Program-made: the position numbers and the translations under genes | In this document: positions 1,657 through 17,663 of the stretch, in pieces | Numbering within the stretch: position 1 is the stretch's first letter | Layout of the letters: the number at the start of each line of letters is the position of its first letter | Notes under the pieces: model-generated | The model's input: the letters and a program-made list of their open reading frames with translations, nothing else | Database searches by the model: none | Told to the model about the DNA's origin: nothing | Assembly: GCA_013141125.1 (NCBI GenBank) | Contig: JABFRO010000001.1 | Location: forward strand, 1,798,001 to 1,862,000 | Origin: Methylophilaceae bacterium | GTDB lineage: Bacteria; Pseudomonadota; Gammaproteobacteria; Burkholderiales; Methylophilaceae | Length of the DNA stretch: 64,000 nucleotides | Reading direction: 5' to 3'

Positions 1657-1729
1657 ACCACCACATCACACTTGATTTTTGCCGCGTCATCCCAATTTTA
1701 TAGGTGTAACTTAGCTGAAGGAGTTGCTA

Positions 1730-2536
1730 ATGGCCACCATCCGTCCTGCTGCCGTTGCTGGCATGTTCTATTCTGGCGATGCTGCCCAATTATCGTTTGA
1801 TATTGATGAAATGCTAGCTATGGCGGGAATTCGCGCAGCGCAACTTAAGCCCAAGGTGCTGATTGCACCGCACGCCGGTTATATTTACTCGGGCGCTATT
1901 GCGGCCAGCGCTTATGCGCTGCTGAAAGCTAGCGCAAAAAACATTCGTCGTGTTGTATTGTTGGGGCCTACGCATCGGGTAGCCGTGCGCGGATTGGCCT
2001 TGCCGGGAGTAGATGCTTTTGTCACTCCGCTCGGCAACGTGGAAATAGATCAGGATGCCGTCAAGCTGATCGCGAACTTGGCGCAAGTGAGTGTCAGTCC
2101 GCAGGCGCATGCATTGGAACATTCACTGGAAGTGCAACTACCGTTTTTACAAACAGTGTTACCGGATTTCAAGTTGCTACCGCTGGCGGTGGGCATGGCT
2201 ACGGCGCAAGAAGTGGCGACAGTGCTGGAAGCGCTGTGGGGCGGTGAAGAAACGCTGATTGTGATTAGTTCCGACCTATCGCATTTTCTGCCGTATGACA
2301 CTGCCCAGCGTGTGGATAACAGCACGGTGCAGGCGATTCTTCATTTGCAACAACCGCTGTCCCATGAACAAGCCTGTGGCGGCACGCCGATTAACGGTTT
2401 GTTGCTGGCGGCAAAACAGCATGGTTTGATACCGCATCTGCTGGATTTGCGCAATTCTGGCGACACTGCCGGGGATAAATCCCGCGTGGTGGGCTATGCC
2501 GCTTTTGCATTCACGGAGGATAAAGCGCATGGCTGA
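1730..2536 (+). CDS. amrB: AmmeMemoRadiSam system protein B (MEMO1 family)
   Basis: A MEMO1-family protein of 268 aa, structurally related to non-haem iron dioxygenases. It starts IRPAAVAGMFYSG and has the family histidine-bearing stretches APHAGYIYSG (about 45-54), HSLEVQLPFL (about 128-137) and SSDLSHF (about 182-188). The ATG at 1730 was chosen because GAAGGAG lies at 1718-1724 with good spacing; the upstream TTG has none. Its last codons overlap the AMMECR1 gene (ATG at 2529), which overlaps the radical SAM gene, so the three are probably translated as one unit. The biochemical reaction of the trio is not established to my knowledge. Confidence 0.92.
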   Translation: MATIRPAAVAGMFYSGDAAQLSFDIDEMLAMAGIRAAQLKPKVLIAPHAGYIYSGAIAASAYALLKASAKNIRRVVLLGPTHRVAVRGLALPGVDAFVTPLGNVEIDQDAVKLIANLAQVSVSPQAHALEHSLEVQLPFLQTVLPDFKLLPLAVGMATAQEVATVLEALWGGEETLIVISSDLSHFLPYDTAQRVDNSTVQAILHLQQPLSHEQACGGTPINGLLLAAKQHGLIPHLLDLRNSGDTAGDKSRVVGYAAFAFTEDKAHG

Positions 2537-3095
2537 GATTGAACACGGGAAAACCCTGCTGACGCAGGCGCGCCAAGCGATTGCCAGCCAGCTGGGGCAA
2601 ACAACATCTATGGCTGAAACGCCGCTTTGGTTATTGGAACCGGGTGCAACGTTTGTCACCCTGACACAGCAAGGCCAGCTGCGTGGCTGTATAGGCAGTC
2701 TGGAAGCATACCGGCCGCTGCTGGAAGATGTACGTCACAACGCCATCGCTGCGGCTTTTCATGATCCGCGTTTTGCGCCACTGATATTTGAAGAGCTGGC
2801 GTTGACGCAAGTGGAAGTATCTTTGCTTTCAGCGCATGAAGCACTTAACTTTGCCAGCGAGGAGGAGGCTCTGGCGCAGTTGCGCCCCGGTATTGACGGT
2901 GTGATTCTGCAATACGGCCATCATCGCAGTACGTTTTTGCCGCAGGTGTGGGAGCAATTGCCAGCACCAGCGCAATTCATGGCGCACCTCAAACGCAAGG
3001 CTGGGTTGTCGGAACAGTTTTGGGCGGATGCCGTCAAGCTCTCACGTTATACCGTGAGCAAATGGAAGGAGAAAAACGACCATGCCAACGAATGA
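2529..3095 (+). CDS. amrA: AmmeMemoRadiSam system protein A (AMMECR1 domain)
   Basis: A 188-aa AMMECR1-domain protein. The diagnostic LRGCIGSLEA motif is at about residues 56-65, followed by ARF-type HDPRF and a C-terminal segment ending near a conserved WKEK. A GGAGG ribosome binding site sits at 2516-2520 and the ATG at 2529 lies inside the last codons of the MEMO gene; its own end overlaps the radical SAM gene start by 14 nt. Human AMMECR1 is linked to a contiguous-gene syndrome, but its activity is unknown. In bacteria it occurs next to MEMO and a radical SAM enzyme, as here. Confidence 0.92.
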   Translation: MAEIEHGKTLLTQARQAIASQLGQTTSMAETPLWLLEPGATFVTLTQQGQLRGCIGSLEAYRPLLEDVRHNAIAAAFHDPRFAPLIFEELALTQVEVSLLSAHEALNFASEEEALAQLRPGIDGVILQYGHHRSTFLPQVWEQLPAPAQFMAHLKRKAGLSEQFWADAVKLSRYTVSKWKEKNDHANE

Positions 3096-4194
3096 AACCA
3101 CAACAGCTATAGAAATCGCCGATACCTATCCAGCCCGCTATTGGCACAGGCTGGATGATGGGCGTATTCAATGTGATTTATGTCCGCGCGATTGCAAGCT
3201 GCATGAAGGCCAGCGCGGTGCCTGCTTTGTGCGTGCCAGAGTGGGCGATACCATGGTGTTGACGACCTATGGCCGTTCCTCGGGATTTTGCATTGATCCC
3301 ATTGAAAAGAAACCGCTCAATCATTTCTACCCCGGCTCCAGCATACTTTCCTTCGGTACTGCTGGCTGTAATCTGGCCTGCAAATTTTGTCAGAACTGGG
3401 ATATTTCCAAATCGCGTGATATGGATAAACTGATGGATCAGGCCACGCCAGAAGCCATTGCCCAAGCCGCACTGGCCAACGGCTGCAAGAGCGTGGCCTT
3501 TACCTATAATGATCCGGTGATTTTTGCCGAATATGCCATGGATGTTGCGGATGCCTGCCATGCGTATGGTATCAAGACGGTTGCCGTCACTGCCGGTTAT
3601 ATGCACGCTCAGCCCCGGCGCGATTTTTACGCCAAAATGGATGCCGCCAATGTAGACCTCAAGGCGTTTTCTGAGGAGTTTTATTACAAACTTACCGGCG
3701 CGCATTTACAGCCTATTCTGGAAACCCTGCAATACCTCAAGCATGAAACCCAGGTGTGGTTTGAAATCACCACGCTGCTGATCCCCGGCTGCAATGATTC
3801 AGATGCCGAGCTGGGCGCAATGTGCGACTGGATTGCCAAGGAACTGAGCACCGATGTGCCGCTGCATTTCACCGCCTTTCACCCGGATTACAAAATGCCG
3901 GATATTCCCGCCACACCGCCAGCAACGCTGAGCAGAGCGCGCCGCATTGCCCAAGCCGCCGGACTGAAATATGTGTATACCGGCAATGTGCATGATACCG
4001 ATGGCGGCACCACGGCCTGCCCGGATTGCCAAAGCCCACTCATCGTGCGCGACTGGCATTTGATTTCCGATTATCAGCTCACCGAACATGGCCGCTGTTC
4101 TCATTGCGGCGTAGCCGTTGCTGGTCATTTTGGCCTGTTTGAAAAGCAGTTTGGCCGCCGCCGCATTCCTGTTGTGTTGCAAACAGCTAGGTAA
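3082..4194 (+). CDS. amrS: AmmeMemoRadiSam system radical SAM enzyme
   Basis: A 370-aa radical SAM enzyme resembling pyruvate-formate-lyase activators. The [4Fe-4S] motif CNLACKFC gives C96, C100 and C103. Extra cysteines occur in the N-terminal region (C31, C34, C38, C48) and in two C-terminal CxxC pairs (TACPDCQ and GRCSHCG), which look like a rubredoxin-type metal knuckle. It is the third member of a tightly overlapping operon with the MEMO and AMMECR1 genes, which identifies it as the AmmeMemoRadiSam enzyme rather than a PFL activator; no glycyl-radical enzyme is nearby. Substrate unknown. The accessory island begins directly downstream. Confidence 0.92.
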   Translation: MPTNETTTAIEIADTYPARYWHRLDDGRIQCDLCPRDCKLHEGQRGACFVRARVGDTMVLTTYGRSSGFCIDPIEKKPLNHFYPGSSILSFGTAGCNLACKFCQNWDISKSRDMDKLMDQATPEAIAQAALANGCKSVAFTYNDPVIFAEYAMDVADACHAYGIKTVAVTAGYMHAQPRRDFYAKMDAANVDLKAFSEEFYYKLTGAHLQPILETLQYLKHETQVWFEITTLLIPGCNDSDAELGAMCDWIAKELSTDVPLHFTAFHPDYKMPDIPATPPATLSRARRIAQAAGLKYVYTGNVHDTDGGTTACPDCQSPLIVRDWHLISDYQLTEHGRCSHCGVAVAGHFGLFEKQFGRRRIPVVLQTAR

Positions 4195-4430
4195 ATGGAC
4201 TCTTAACGGAGTCTGTAGCTATATTTGCCTTAATGACCGCTTTGCAGACGAAGCGGACGGTCGAAGGTGTTATGTTGAATTTCTGCTCCTCAGCCATTGC
4301 GAACTGTGGTTATTTTATGAAAAGGCGGTTAGATCAGTCTTCGGGAATGACAGCTTTCGACTTTAGTGAGCAACATACTGACGTTCAAAACACTGCAACT
4401 GTGCAAGCCTGTCCACGGCATTTGAATATC
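4195..4430. other. Non-coding stretch between radical SAM gene and retron
   Basis: No convincing gene. It holds a 6-bp hairpin CCGCTT/AAGCGG at 4239-4258, whose right arm belongs to a 12-bp motif (4251-4262) that recurs just after the retron at 6431-6442. The hairpin has no T run, so a terminator role for the upstream operon is doubtful. Short reading frames here have no ribosome binding site or recognisable product. Confidence 0.5.
4251..4262 (+). repeat. Left copy of 12-bp direct repeat flanking the retron
   Basis: AAGCGGACGGTC occurs here and again at 6431-6442, in the same orientation and on either side of the retron cassette. Both copies are preceded at the same distance by TGACC, so the similarity extends imperfectly over about 29 bp. 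It could mark the ends of the inserted cassette, or be a common intergenic motif of this genome. Confidence 0.45.
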
Positions 4431-4434
4431 TTGA

Positions 4435-4463
4435 TTGATTACTTTGTAAAACATTGCTAGATT
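4435..4463 (+). promoter_or_regulatory. Predicted promoter of the retron RNA
   Basis: TTGATT at 4435-4440, a 17-bp spacer, then TAGATT at 4458-4463 preceded by TG one base earlier (extended -10, TGCTAGATT). The expected start point (about 4470) coincides with the first base of the retron a1 repeat at 4471. The position agreement is what makes this convincing. Confidence 0.65.
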
Positions 4464-4470
4464 GCCAGCT

Positions 4471-4596
4471 GGCTTATGGGCAGATTTTGGGTCGCGCATC
4501 GCGATCAGTGAAAAAAATGTCCGTCTGGATTGCCCTTGACAGTGATTATGCGTACTCGATAATCTCATTGACAGTGCGAAAGAGTGCCCATAAGCC
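4471..4596 (+). ncRNA. Retron msr-msd RNA (Ec67 type)
   Basis: The 126-nt primer-template RNA of a retron. A perfect 12-bp inverted repeat, a1 GGCTTATGGGCA (4471-4482) and a2 TGCCCATAAGCC (4585-4596), encloses it. In the msr part a hairpin TCGCG-CAT-CGCGA sits at 4492-4504; in the msd part GATTAT (4544-4549) pairs with ATAATC (4559-4564) around a 9-nt loop. The G at 4483, just after a1 in CAGATTT, is the expected branching guanosine. As I recall the Ec67 RNA, it shares GGCAGATTT after a1, CAGTG after the first hairpin, and TGCGAA-GAGTGCC into a2. The RT gene starts 26 nt downstream, the standard msr-msd-ret order. Confidence 0.85.
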
Positions 4597-4621
4597 TCCT
4601 TAAGGGATAAATCTAAAAATA

Positions 4622-6412
4622 ATGGGTAAATTAGCAGCTCTTAAGCAAATCACCACGAAACCTCAATTGGCTGCATTGCTTGGGGTGAAAGCTCAGACAC
4701 TCACTCATGTTTTATATGTATTAACGCCTGCTACTCAATACTTCGGATTTACAATCCTAAAAAAAAAACGGTGGCACTCGAAATATCCTCTCACCATCAG
4801 ATAAATTAAAAAGCCTGCAATCCAGCCTATCTAATTTATTACTCGATTGCATTGATGAGATAAACGAAACCAAAAAAAAGCAATATAGATACAAACATGC
4901 TTTGTCACATGGCTTTGTTCGAGAATGTTCGATTATGACTAATGCACTACTGCATTTAAATAAAAAAAACGTGCTAAATATCGATTTAAAAGATTTTTTT
5001 GATAGTTTTAACTTTGGTCGAGTAAGAGGATTTTTCATCAAAAATAATCACTTCAAATTAGACCCTCATATTGCCACCGTCATTGCACAAATCGCTTGCT
5101 ACGAAAACAAGCTCCCTCAAGGTAGTCCATGCTCTCCTGTTATCACCAACTTAATAACCCATTCTTTAGATATTAGACTTGCATCATTAGCAAAAAAATA
5201 TTCTTGTACGTATTCAAGATATGCTGACGATATAACTTTCTCGACGCGCAAGTCGGCATTTCCCAGACAAATTATGGGGCAAGAAGAAGGCCAATTTATT
5301 AACGGGAAAGAACTTAAAAGCGATATTGAACGTGCTGGATTTTCAATAAATGATAAGAAAACACGCATTCAATACAAGGATTCCAGACAAGATGTTACTG
5401 GCCTAATCGTTAATAAAAAACCCAATGTGAAAAAAGAGTATTGGCGTACCGTAAAATCACAATGCCATCTTTTATTTCAGACAGGTGCATTTATTAAGAA
5501 GACTGTTAATGGTGATGTAGAAGGGAATATTAATGAGTTAAATGGGCAGTTAAACTTTGTTGACCAAGTAGATCGCTTTAACCGCTCACGTGAAAAATCA
5601 CCATTAAATCCAATATATCAACTTCAAAATCACGGCCAAAATACCACCCCATTACTAAGTGGCAGAGAAAAAACTTTTAGTCGATTTTTGTTCTATCGCC
5701 TTTTTTACGCCAACACAAAACCAACCATCCTGTGTGAAGGTAAGACAGATAATATTTACCTCAAATCAACGATTAGCATCTTGGCAGAACATTATCCAAA
5801 ATTGGCTAACCGAAAAACCCAAAAGAATCCGTATGAACTGCTGATTCAATTTGTTGAATATTCGAAACGCACGCGGTTTTTTCTTCAGTTATATGGTGGT
5901 GCATCCTACCTAAATTATTTTGTTAGCCAGTTTGACAAACATCACCGGTATTACAAAGCCCCCGCTCCTCAACAGCCTGTCATTATCGTATTAGACAACG
6001 ATTCAGGTTCTTTAAACATCGTGAGTAAACTTAAAACACTGGATTCAGTAACGACATATCCTGCCACTTTGAAAAAAGATGATTATGCTAAAGCAGATTT
6101 CTTCCATGTCATGCACAATCTTTATATTGTTTTAACGCCGTTAAATGCAAAAAATGAGCCTACGGATATTGAATCCCTCTTTGATGATTCGATACGACTC
6201 AAACAACACAATGGGAAGTGTTTTAATACGATAGATAAACGCGATGAAAAAGTTGATTTAAGCAAAGAGGCATTTGCGAATCATATTATCAATGCACAAA
6301 AAAAACGCTTAATTTTGATACATTAAAACCACTTCTAAATCGGGTGGTTGCTGCCATTTCTCATTATGATTCAATTAAGCTATTAAAGGGGGTAGCATCG
6401 AAACCTTTCTGA
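4622..6412 (+). pseudogene. ret: Retron reverse transcriptase-TOPRIM, twice frameshifted
   Basis: A retron RT fused to a TOPRIM domain, given here as one gene in three frames: 4622 to about 4768, about 4760-6305, and about 6302-6412. The first segment holds the RT N-terminus up to FGFTI. After A10 at 4759-4768 the frame moves +1 and continues KKNGGTRN; the middle segment has NALLH (NAxxH), LPQGSPCSP, YSRYADD (catalytic) and VTGL (VTG). The C-terminal third carries CEGKTD and VLDNDSG, the Glu and Asp-x-Asp motifs of TOPRIM nucleases. After A8 at 6298-6305 a -1 shift gives NFDTLKPLLNR to a stop at 6412. The joined product, about 596 aa, matches Ec67 RT (586 aa as I recall) throughout. Without the shifts the product lacks its N-terminal fingers or its tail, so function is uncertain. 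AT-richer than its neighbours, consistent with transfer. Confidence 0.85.
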
Positions 6413-6430
6413 GTGACCACTTCCAGCACC

Positions 6431-6442
6431 AAGCGGACGGTC
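6431..6442 (+). repeat. Right copy of 12-bp direct repeat flanking the retron
   Basis: AAGCGGACGGTC, identical to 4251-4262, starting 18 nt after the reconstructed end of the RT gene. See the left copy. Confidence 0.45.
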
Positions 6443-6590: not shown

Positions 6591-7127
6591 TCACGCACTC
6601 ACCGCACGCATCCTGTCAATTTTTTCGATAACCGCCTGATAGAGATCATGGTCGGAATCCGGATTATTGCGGTCTGGATGGTGGGCGCTACGGATCTTTT
6701 TCAGTTTAGTCATACAGTCTGGCAGATCATGTACCTTGGTCACCCGGTCACCGTTTTTGGCCATTATGCGCTGAAGCTCAGCCTCTGCGGCTTCGCGTGT
6801 GGCATATAACATCTTGCTGCCAAGACGCCAACTATCCTGGTTCTTGCGTGGAGATAGCTTTTCCTTGCCATCAAGCCAGATCCATTTTCCAGTATCGGCA
6901 TCCTGTTCAAAATGAATGGTGGTGATGGCGTAGGTGTAAACGGGTGGCTCGATTTCCTTGGTGAACCGCTGGATGATCTTGCTAACAGTCCCCACCGTTA
7001 CAAGGTAATACGCGCCTGCCTCATGCGGGCAGAACGCGTTGCTGTGCGTTGGTTCAGGCTTGCTGTCGTTATTTGATGAATTCATTTCAGCCATGCGGCT
7101 AAGTGCTCTGCGTTGTGCATTAGTCAC
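6591..7127 (-). CDS. Orphan protein with C-terminal J-like HPD segment
   Basis: A 178-aa protein I do not recognise as a whole. It starts at GTG 7127, supported by AAGGAG 8 nt upstream; the next ATG codons lack such a site. The middle (about residues 45-120) is a compact soluble domain with no family motif I know. The end (about 140-175) reads LKKIRSAHHPDRNNPDS and a helix, which resembles helices II-III of a J domain with its HPD loop. There is no signal peptide or membrane segment. It sits on the opposite strand to the retron, between it and the tRNA-like remnant, so it may be island cargo. Interaction with DnaK would be inference only. Confidence 0.6.
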   Translation of the reverse strand: MTNAQRRALSRMAEMNSSNNDSKPEPTHSNAFCPHEAGAYYLVTVGTVSKIIQRFTKEIEPPVYTYAITTIHFEQDADTGKWIWLDGKEKLSPRKNQDSWRLGSKMLYATREAAEAELQRIMAKNGDRVTKVHDLPDCMTKLKKIRSAHHPDRNNPDSDHDLYQAVIEKIDRMRAVSA

Positions 7128-13066: not shown

Positions 13067-13201
13067 AAGCACCCATTCATCAAAAGAACATCATTTTAGT
13101 CGCAATCAATGGTCTATGCTATCCACTCTTTATTCATCAGCAAAGTTAGCTCCCCCTTATGTCAGCTGATATTATTCGAGATAATTCATTAGACCGTCCT
13201 A

Positions 13202-13311
13202 CCGGCGCAGGCCGGTACCCAGCTAAAAACACGCCGCGAAGCGGACAAAACCATGATGTTGTCCCGCTTTCGCGGGAATTGTTTAATCCTCTGGATTCCG
13301 GCCTGCGCCGG
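13202..13311. repeat. REP/BIME-like inverted repeat cluster
   Basis: CCGGCGCAGGCCGG (13202-13215) and its exact reverse complement CCGGCCTGCGCCGG (13298-13311) bracket about 80 bp, which contains a second hairpin TCCCGC-TTTC-GCGGGA (13262-13277). This is the organisation of bacterial interspersed REP elements. It lies between the divergent ftsY and the gene at 13402. No transposase is near. Confidence 0.65.
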
Positions 13312-13401
13312 AATAACTTGGTTTTTTCTAATGAATTAGCTCCGATTTTTCGACAAATTAGACTGATAGCTACTCTATATTTATAGCTATTGAGAATCCT
13401 T

Positions 13402-17117: not shown

Positions 17118-17663
17118 ATGTCTAATCCAATTATTTTCAAAGCAGGTGAAGCCACGGTATACACCCCCGGTAAAGATGTTACTGCCGCCATGCCGGAAAT
17201 TCTTATCGGCCGTGTTGATGGCCCAGTGGGTGCTGCTTTTGCCAACATGATGGCGCAAACCAAAGGCCATACCGCCATGTTTGTGGTGCGTGACATCAAC
17301 CAGCTGGTGCGCCCTGCCGCCATGATGGCACCCAAAGTGACATTGAAAGATTCAGCCAACATTGAACTGTTTGGTGGCGTGGTACAAGCCGCCACCGCTG
17401 ATGCTATTCTGGATTGTGTGATTGAAGGCATCATCCCCAAAGATCAGGTCAATGATCTGTGCATTATCAGCCTGGTCTGGATTGACCCGGGCTGTGCCAA
17501 AGAAGCCAATCTGGATAAGGCAGACATGTACAAAAACAACTACGAAGCCACCAAGCTGGCCATCAAGCGTGCGTTGAACGACGAACCTTCGATTGACGAA
17601 CTCATTAAAAACCGCCACACCATCAAACATTGCATGTGGGAAGAAAGCTGGGATCAAAAATAA
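17118..17663 (+). CDS. Formaldehyde-activating enzyme (Fae) homologue
   Basis: A 181-aa Fae-family protein. Fae condenses formaldehyde with tetrahydromethanopterin in methylotrophs and related bacteria. Shared features are ILIGRVDGPVGAAFA (about 28-42), IPKDQVNDLCIISLVWIDP and the tail YNNYEATKLAIKRAL-like segment (about 136-150). In classical Fae the catalytic His lies four residues before the LIG motif (HIDLLIG); here that place is Met (MPEILIG), so it may be a divergent paralogue (fae2/fae3-like) with another role. It has its own promoter and terminator, hence a single-gene unit. Confidence 0.85.
   Translation: MSNPIIFKAGEATVYTPGKDVTAAMPEILIGRVDGPVGAAFANMMAQTKGHTAMFVVRDINQLVRPAAMMAPKVTLKDSANIELFGGVVQAATADAILDCVIEGIIPKDQVNDLCIISLVWIDPGCAKEANLDKADMYKNNYEATKLAIKRALNDEPSIDELIKNRHTIKHCMWEESWDQK

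Follow-up and report, generated by a model that had tools for sequence, protein, structure and literature searches.

The window (the whole 64,000-nt stretch of DNA analysed here) carries what is very probably a retron of the Retron-Eco2 (Ec67, type I-C) kind, acquired recently and horizontally, with a protein gene that is frame-broken as assembled. We place it in Ec67/Retron-Eco2 because of protein models, homology to a solved structure, ncRNA covariation and a covariance-model search. Retrons of this kind are already known; the analysis adds that the gene is damaged, that the origin is horizontal and recent, and that covariation is strong. To judge from the sequence, nearly all known catalytic residues, the ncRNA and its promoter are preserved. 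An earlier note on this DNA had called the retron complete, which is true of its parts, though not of the reading frame, interrupted twice; the note had written of a 'joined RT' without stressing the breaks. All parts of the retron given below lie on the + strand.

An RT-Toprim fusion of the Ec67 family

Joining the three open frames described below yields a protein of 596 aa that matches NCBIfam NF038237 (retron_Ec67_fus) along its length at 755 bits (cutoff 450), the PADLOC model RT-Toprim_I-C at 747 bits and, by phmmer, the solved Eco2 protein (PDB 9i2f/9lm3) at 478 bits over residues 2-583. These scores, together with the ncRNA model below, bear out the Ec67 (Retron-Eco2) membership proposed in the earlier note; the betaproteobacterial host that it had named also agrees with the genome, which shares its taxonomic order with one of Undibacterium.

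The reverse transcriptase (RT) and Toprim motifs singled out in that note (NAxxH, YADD and VTG; EGKTD and DND) were all found in the joined protein. Alignment to Ec67 identified the RT motifs as NALLH, YADD and VTG, the catalytic YADD (5220-5231) aligning with Eco2 Y199-D202. Toprim catalytic residues, placed by alignment with Eco2, span 5736-6002: E372 and D376 in EGKTD (from 5736) and D458 and D460 in LDND (DND at 5994-6002). Taking the functional residues of Eco2 from PMC12405507, we found F46, R56, K66, YADD, K245, R247, H281, E374, D378, D460, D462 and E515 all conserved, the last five of these aligning with window E372, D376, D458, D460 and E517. The catalytic lysine of Eco2, K562, has an uncertain placement in the alignment, close to the second frame break.

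There is a negligible probability that the gene belongs to another retron type or encodes the reverse transcriptase of a group II intron or DGR. The group II RT model TIGR04416 gives the weak match (52 bits, cutoff 300) that any RT would give, but the Ec67 fusion family is favoured by ~700 bits, a Toprim domain is fused, a specific ncRNA lies upstream and the nearest relatives are likewise fusions of RT with Toprim, so that these scores refute a group II intron or DGR identity.

The msr-msd RNA and its promoter

Just upstream of the RNA lies a promoter-like pair (4435-4463), comprising a -35 element TTGATT (4435-4440) and, after a spacer of 17 nt, an extended -10 with TG at 4455-4456 and TAGATT at 4458-4463. 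The extended -10 had been pointed out before, and its TGnTA recurs in many relatives at a similar distance before a1, although the pair was too weak to register in a generic promoter scan.

The whole msr-msd RNA occupies 4471-4596. Its a1 arm (4471-4482, GGCTTATGGGCA) is the perfect complement, over 12 bp, of its a2 arm (4585-4596); the repeat was therefore read correctly in the earlier note, but the 126 nt said there to be enclosed are the total span, the arms enclosing 102 nt. Directly after a1 stands G4483, the predicted branching guanosine (priming G, 2'-5' linkage), as the note had it; a G occupies that column in all 24 relatives aligned, and it corresponds to rG15 of Eco2 (PMC12405507). 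An msr stem-loop, GGTCGCG-CAT-CGCGATC, follows at 4490-4506, and alignment with Ec67 predicts an msd template at 4519-4583. The msDNA should then be the reverse complement of 4519-4583, ~65 nt long, with a first base T opposite A4583; the 67-nt msDNA of Ec67 likewise begins with T (PMC12405507). The start codon of the protein gene, ATG 4622, lies 25 nt past a2.

In the minimum free energy fold a1 and a2 are paired (z-score -3.3 vs shuffles), and they are paired also in the centroid fold, where the msr stem-loop at 4490-4506 is formed and G4483 is unpaired. The fold that the note had anticipated, with paired arms and a free branching G, was thus recovered for the arms, whereas G4483 is drawn paired in the minimum free energy fold, its unpaired state resting on the centroid and the family consensus. 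The predicted msDNA, folded as DNA, did no better than shuffles.

By itself the a1/a2 repeat is weak evidence, because chance alone would put ~0.4 perfect 12-bp inverted repeats with such spacing into a window, and this one contains a few others. The ncRNA as a whole is nonetheless far beyond chance, as shown by a held-out covariance-model match and by covariation. Since an Rfam search of the ncRNA gave no match at the gathering threshold, and none at E up to 1, the covariance model was built in this analysis. Another 26 loci arranged in this way were gathered, among them that of Ec67 in E. coli S10 and nine on IMG/VR contigs, and the model R1 was built from 14 relatives, excluding the window and its closest relative. 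Searched against the window and the genome, R1 recovered 4471-4596 at 118.1 bits (E ~1e-29) and nothing else of weight, making the RNA unique in the genome; the covariance search proposed in the earlier note therefore came out in its favour.

For covariation, an alignment of 24 distinct ncRNAs was scored at 19 named pairs, 98% of whose cells hold standard pairs; this pairing was lost when partners were slid. Two-sided compensatory change was seen at 15 of the 19 pairs, vs a mean of 7.6 in shuffles, with a1/a2 contributing 11 of its 12 pairs and the msr stem-loop 4 of its 7. Conservation is uneven along the RNA: from after a1 to ~4535 the window is 81-100% identical to close-clade relatives, while in the msd hairpin part identity drops to 24-72%, the closest relative excepted. 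At the sequence level, then, the msr and the msd ends are conserved and the msd middle is variable. The msd hairpin region, at alignment columns 68-127 (window ~4536-4575), is very variable even among close relatives, in which the msr and the two ends of the ncRNA hardly change. The Ec67/Eco2 retron family is extended here by a clade of closely related ncRNAs, in which covariation strongly supports a1/a2 and the msr stem-loop.

Horizontal acquisition of the module

The 2-kb module (4416-6412) shares 93.7% DNA identity with a copy that sits, in another bacterial family, at an unrelated site (locus L002, on JAHJJI010000033.1, a MAG from a marine rock biofilm), where the retron has a 178-aa ORF on one side and an mfd-like ORF on the other. 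In the window, whose host genome is 3.2 Mb, it is preceded by a conserved three-gene cluster ending in a radical-SAM gene (1724-4194) and followed by a 178-aa ORF (6591-7127) without Pfam match. The window radical-SAM protein is only 75% identical to that of a genome of L002's genus; the GC content of the module is 36.5%, vs 52% and 49% in its flanks; and, among 150 genomes of the host's family, only the host genome itself has an RT-Toprim above the family cutoff. Because of this combination of a near-identical copy in another family, a far more diverged neighbouring gene, low GC and restriction to a single family genome, the sequence comparison indicates that the module was acquired horizontally, and recently. 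A retron module of 2 kb is thereby shown moving between bacterial families. Relatives diverge directly after the radical-SAM gene, where an empty site was not definable.

A conjugative Shewanella baltica plasmid, other plasmids and viral contigs carry related copies. One, on plasmid pSBP2_mcr4 (NZ_CP051531.1), is a 61%-identical type I-C retron near traI of a conjugative Shewanella plasmid named for mcr-4. Three further hits, H4, H5 (Caballeronia) and H9 (an E. coli plasmid), match RT-Toprim in two pieces with no gene listed, so that RT-Toprim copies that are broken or split may not be exceptional on plasmids and large replicons.

On either side of the window retron stand short direct repeats that contain AGCGGAC (4235-4258 and 6415-6438); the L002 retron has a related pair around it, in inverted orientation (4736-4770 and 6815-6850). 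They are possibly remnants of a transfer event; we claim no transposition mechanism, because the pattern has few copies in the genome and its counts equal those of a reversed-pattern control, with no excess.

Two frame breaks in the RT-Toprim gene

The window has no single uninterrupted RT-Toprim reading frame; two one-base indels divide the gene. The first open frame (4622-4804) encodes the RT N-terminal part, in frame to ~4768 and out of frame thereafter, and would give a truncated peptide of 60 aa; the break falls at an A10 tract (4759-4768), with a net gain of 1 nt relative to the intact relative L002. The second open frame (4769-6326), whose first usual start codon is TTG 4902, takes in the bulk of the RT domain and the Toprim domain. 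At an A8 tract (6298-6305) 1 nt is missing relative to L002, a C having been lost from AAAAAAACACG, and the C-terminal tail continues in a third frame (6306-6412) to a TGA stop at 6410-6412. The missing single frame bears on the function of the window copy, not on its descent. As assembled, this copy is expected to give no full-length protein and is most likely silent or weakly active; a whole-genome search found no second RT or ncRNA able to complement the broken gene. Probably, then, we are looking at a locus switched off, or at a sequencing glitch, rather than at a new system.

L002 is uninterrupted over 587 aa and 92% identical. Together with 25 further relatives it has an uninterrupted frame over the part compared (26 of the 26 checked); no break was seen in a fragment at a contig end (L088). 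By parsimony counts, uncorrected for multiple hits (385 and 1,403 sites; outgroups L003, L009, L041 and L004), 21 synonymous and 26 non-synonymous changes fall on the window branch (dN/dS ~0.34), and 18 and 23 on the L002 branch (dN/dS ~0.35). Equality with the intact sister means that the window copy was under the same constraint for nearly all of its separate history; purifying selection acted on it until very recently, and an old pseudogene is rejected. It follows that the break is very recent, or is a sequencing error, or is bypassed by transcript slippage.

We consider the chances about even that a very recent loss explains the breaks. It is possible, and we keep it as a tentative reading, that both instead arose in poly-A tracts through errors of sequencing or assembly, the retron being fully intact and functional. 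Both breaks are indeed at poly-A, the A10 being the longest homopolymer in the window; the selection on the window branch matches that of the intact sister, the RT and Toprim motif residues are intact, and all other relatives carry intact frames. However, other A8, T8 and C7 runs in the window show no visible frame breaks, and ORFs elsewhere in it look full-length. The reported assembly completeness of 99.89%, unlike that of an indel-ridden assembly, speaks mildly against error, and the second break, a lost C, is more than a change of run length.

A partial bypass of real breaks, by slippage or otherwise, is unlikely. The specific form in which RNA polymerase slips on A10 (minus one A, or plus two), giving some in-frame mRNA and a low or phase-variable level of RT-Toprim, we hold to be improbable. 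The tract is about as long as those known to slip, transcriptional slippage on an A11 tract rescuing tssM1 of Citrobacter rodentium (PMC4256274), and purifying selection on the window branch persisted; but A10 is not conserved, aligned relatives having shorter or interrupted runs at that place, the first site needs -1 or +2 rather than addition of a single A, and the full C-terminus needs a second event. Ribosomal -1 frameshifting at A10 does not restore the frame at the first site and is ruled out, since it enters a third frame with an early stop. It is very doubtful that A10 is a slippage or phase-variation switch by which RT-Toprim, a potentially toxic nuclease, is kept off for the most part and restored in a small fraction of cells or transcripts.

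The assembled gene carries a warning that defence scans may score this locus as an active retron despite its interruption. The intact sister copy L002 is the sensible one for testing.

Relation to Retron-Eco2 and other retrons

The locus shares with Retron-Eco2 (Ec67; E. coli S10 / Cl-1) the order promoter - msr - msd - RT-Toprim, an RNA with one msr stem-loop, a1/a2 and an invariant branching G, and the union of NAxxH/YADD/VTG with the Toprim E..D and DxD in one fused protein of about 590 aa. It differs in having only ~43% protein identity, a different msd sequence and a gene interrupted twice. The trimer-loop D331/R332/Y333 of Eco2 is not conserved in the whole window clade, throughout which Tyr stands at R332, a position where mutation abolishes defence by Eco2; in the window R70 is Ser and S513 is Asp. 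Phage genes surround the Ec67 locus, but none were seen beside the window retron. The type I-C retron of L002 is alike over the whole module, with a nearly identical ncRNA, and differs in its intact frame and in its surroundings, the window copy standing instead downstream of the radical-SAM gene cluster. Type XI and XII retrons (RT-protease and RT-TIR) have a similar fusion architecture and a related RT (~327 bits with PADLOC, RT part only), but their effector is a protease or TIR and not Toprim.

For Eco2, Toprim RNase activity and anti-phage defence have been reported, the complex being an RNA-bridged, self-inhibited trimer whose Toprim RNase is toxic once freed from RT-msDNA, with phage DenB as the likely trigger (PMC12405507). 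By analogy, we infer that members of the clade with an intact gene work on the same principle. In a working copy, RT-Toprim would prime from the branching G and copy the msd into a ~65-nt DNA still linked to the RNA; this msDNA would keep RT-Toprim in an inactive oligomer, until attack on it by a phage nuclease released the Toprim domain, which would then cut RNA and block phage replication. The trimer-loop and S513 changes suggest that oligomer contacts and the metal site may differ from those of Eco2.

Other features of the window

A defence island was looked for among 10 window proteins, with no PADLOC hit. A formaldehyde-activating enzyme (Fae) is encoded at 17118-17663, which, together with the small-genome relatives in the family, suggests that the host is a methylotroph, perhaps one of the Methylophilaceae. 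At 13182-13338, a 317 bp intergenic region holds several perfect inverted repeats of at least 12 bp, for example CCGGCGCAGGCC.
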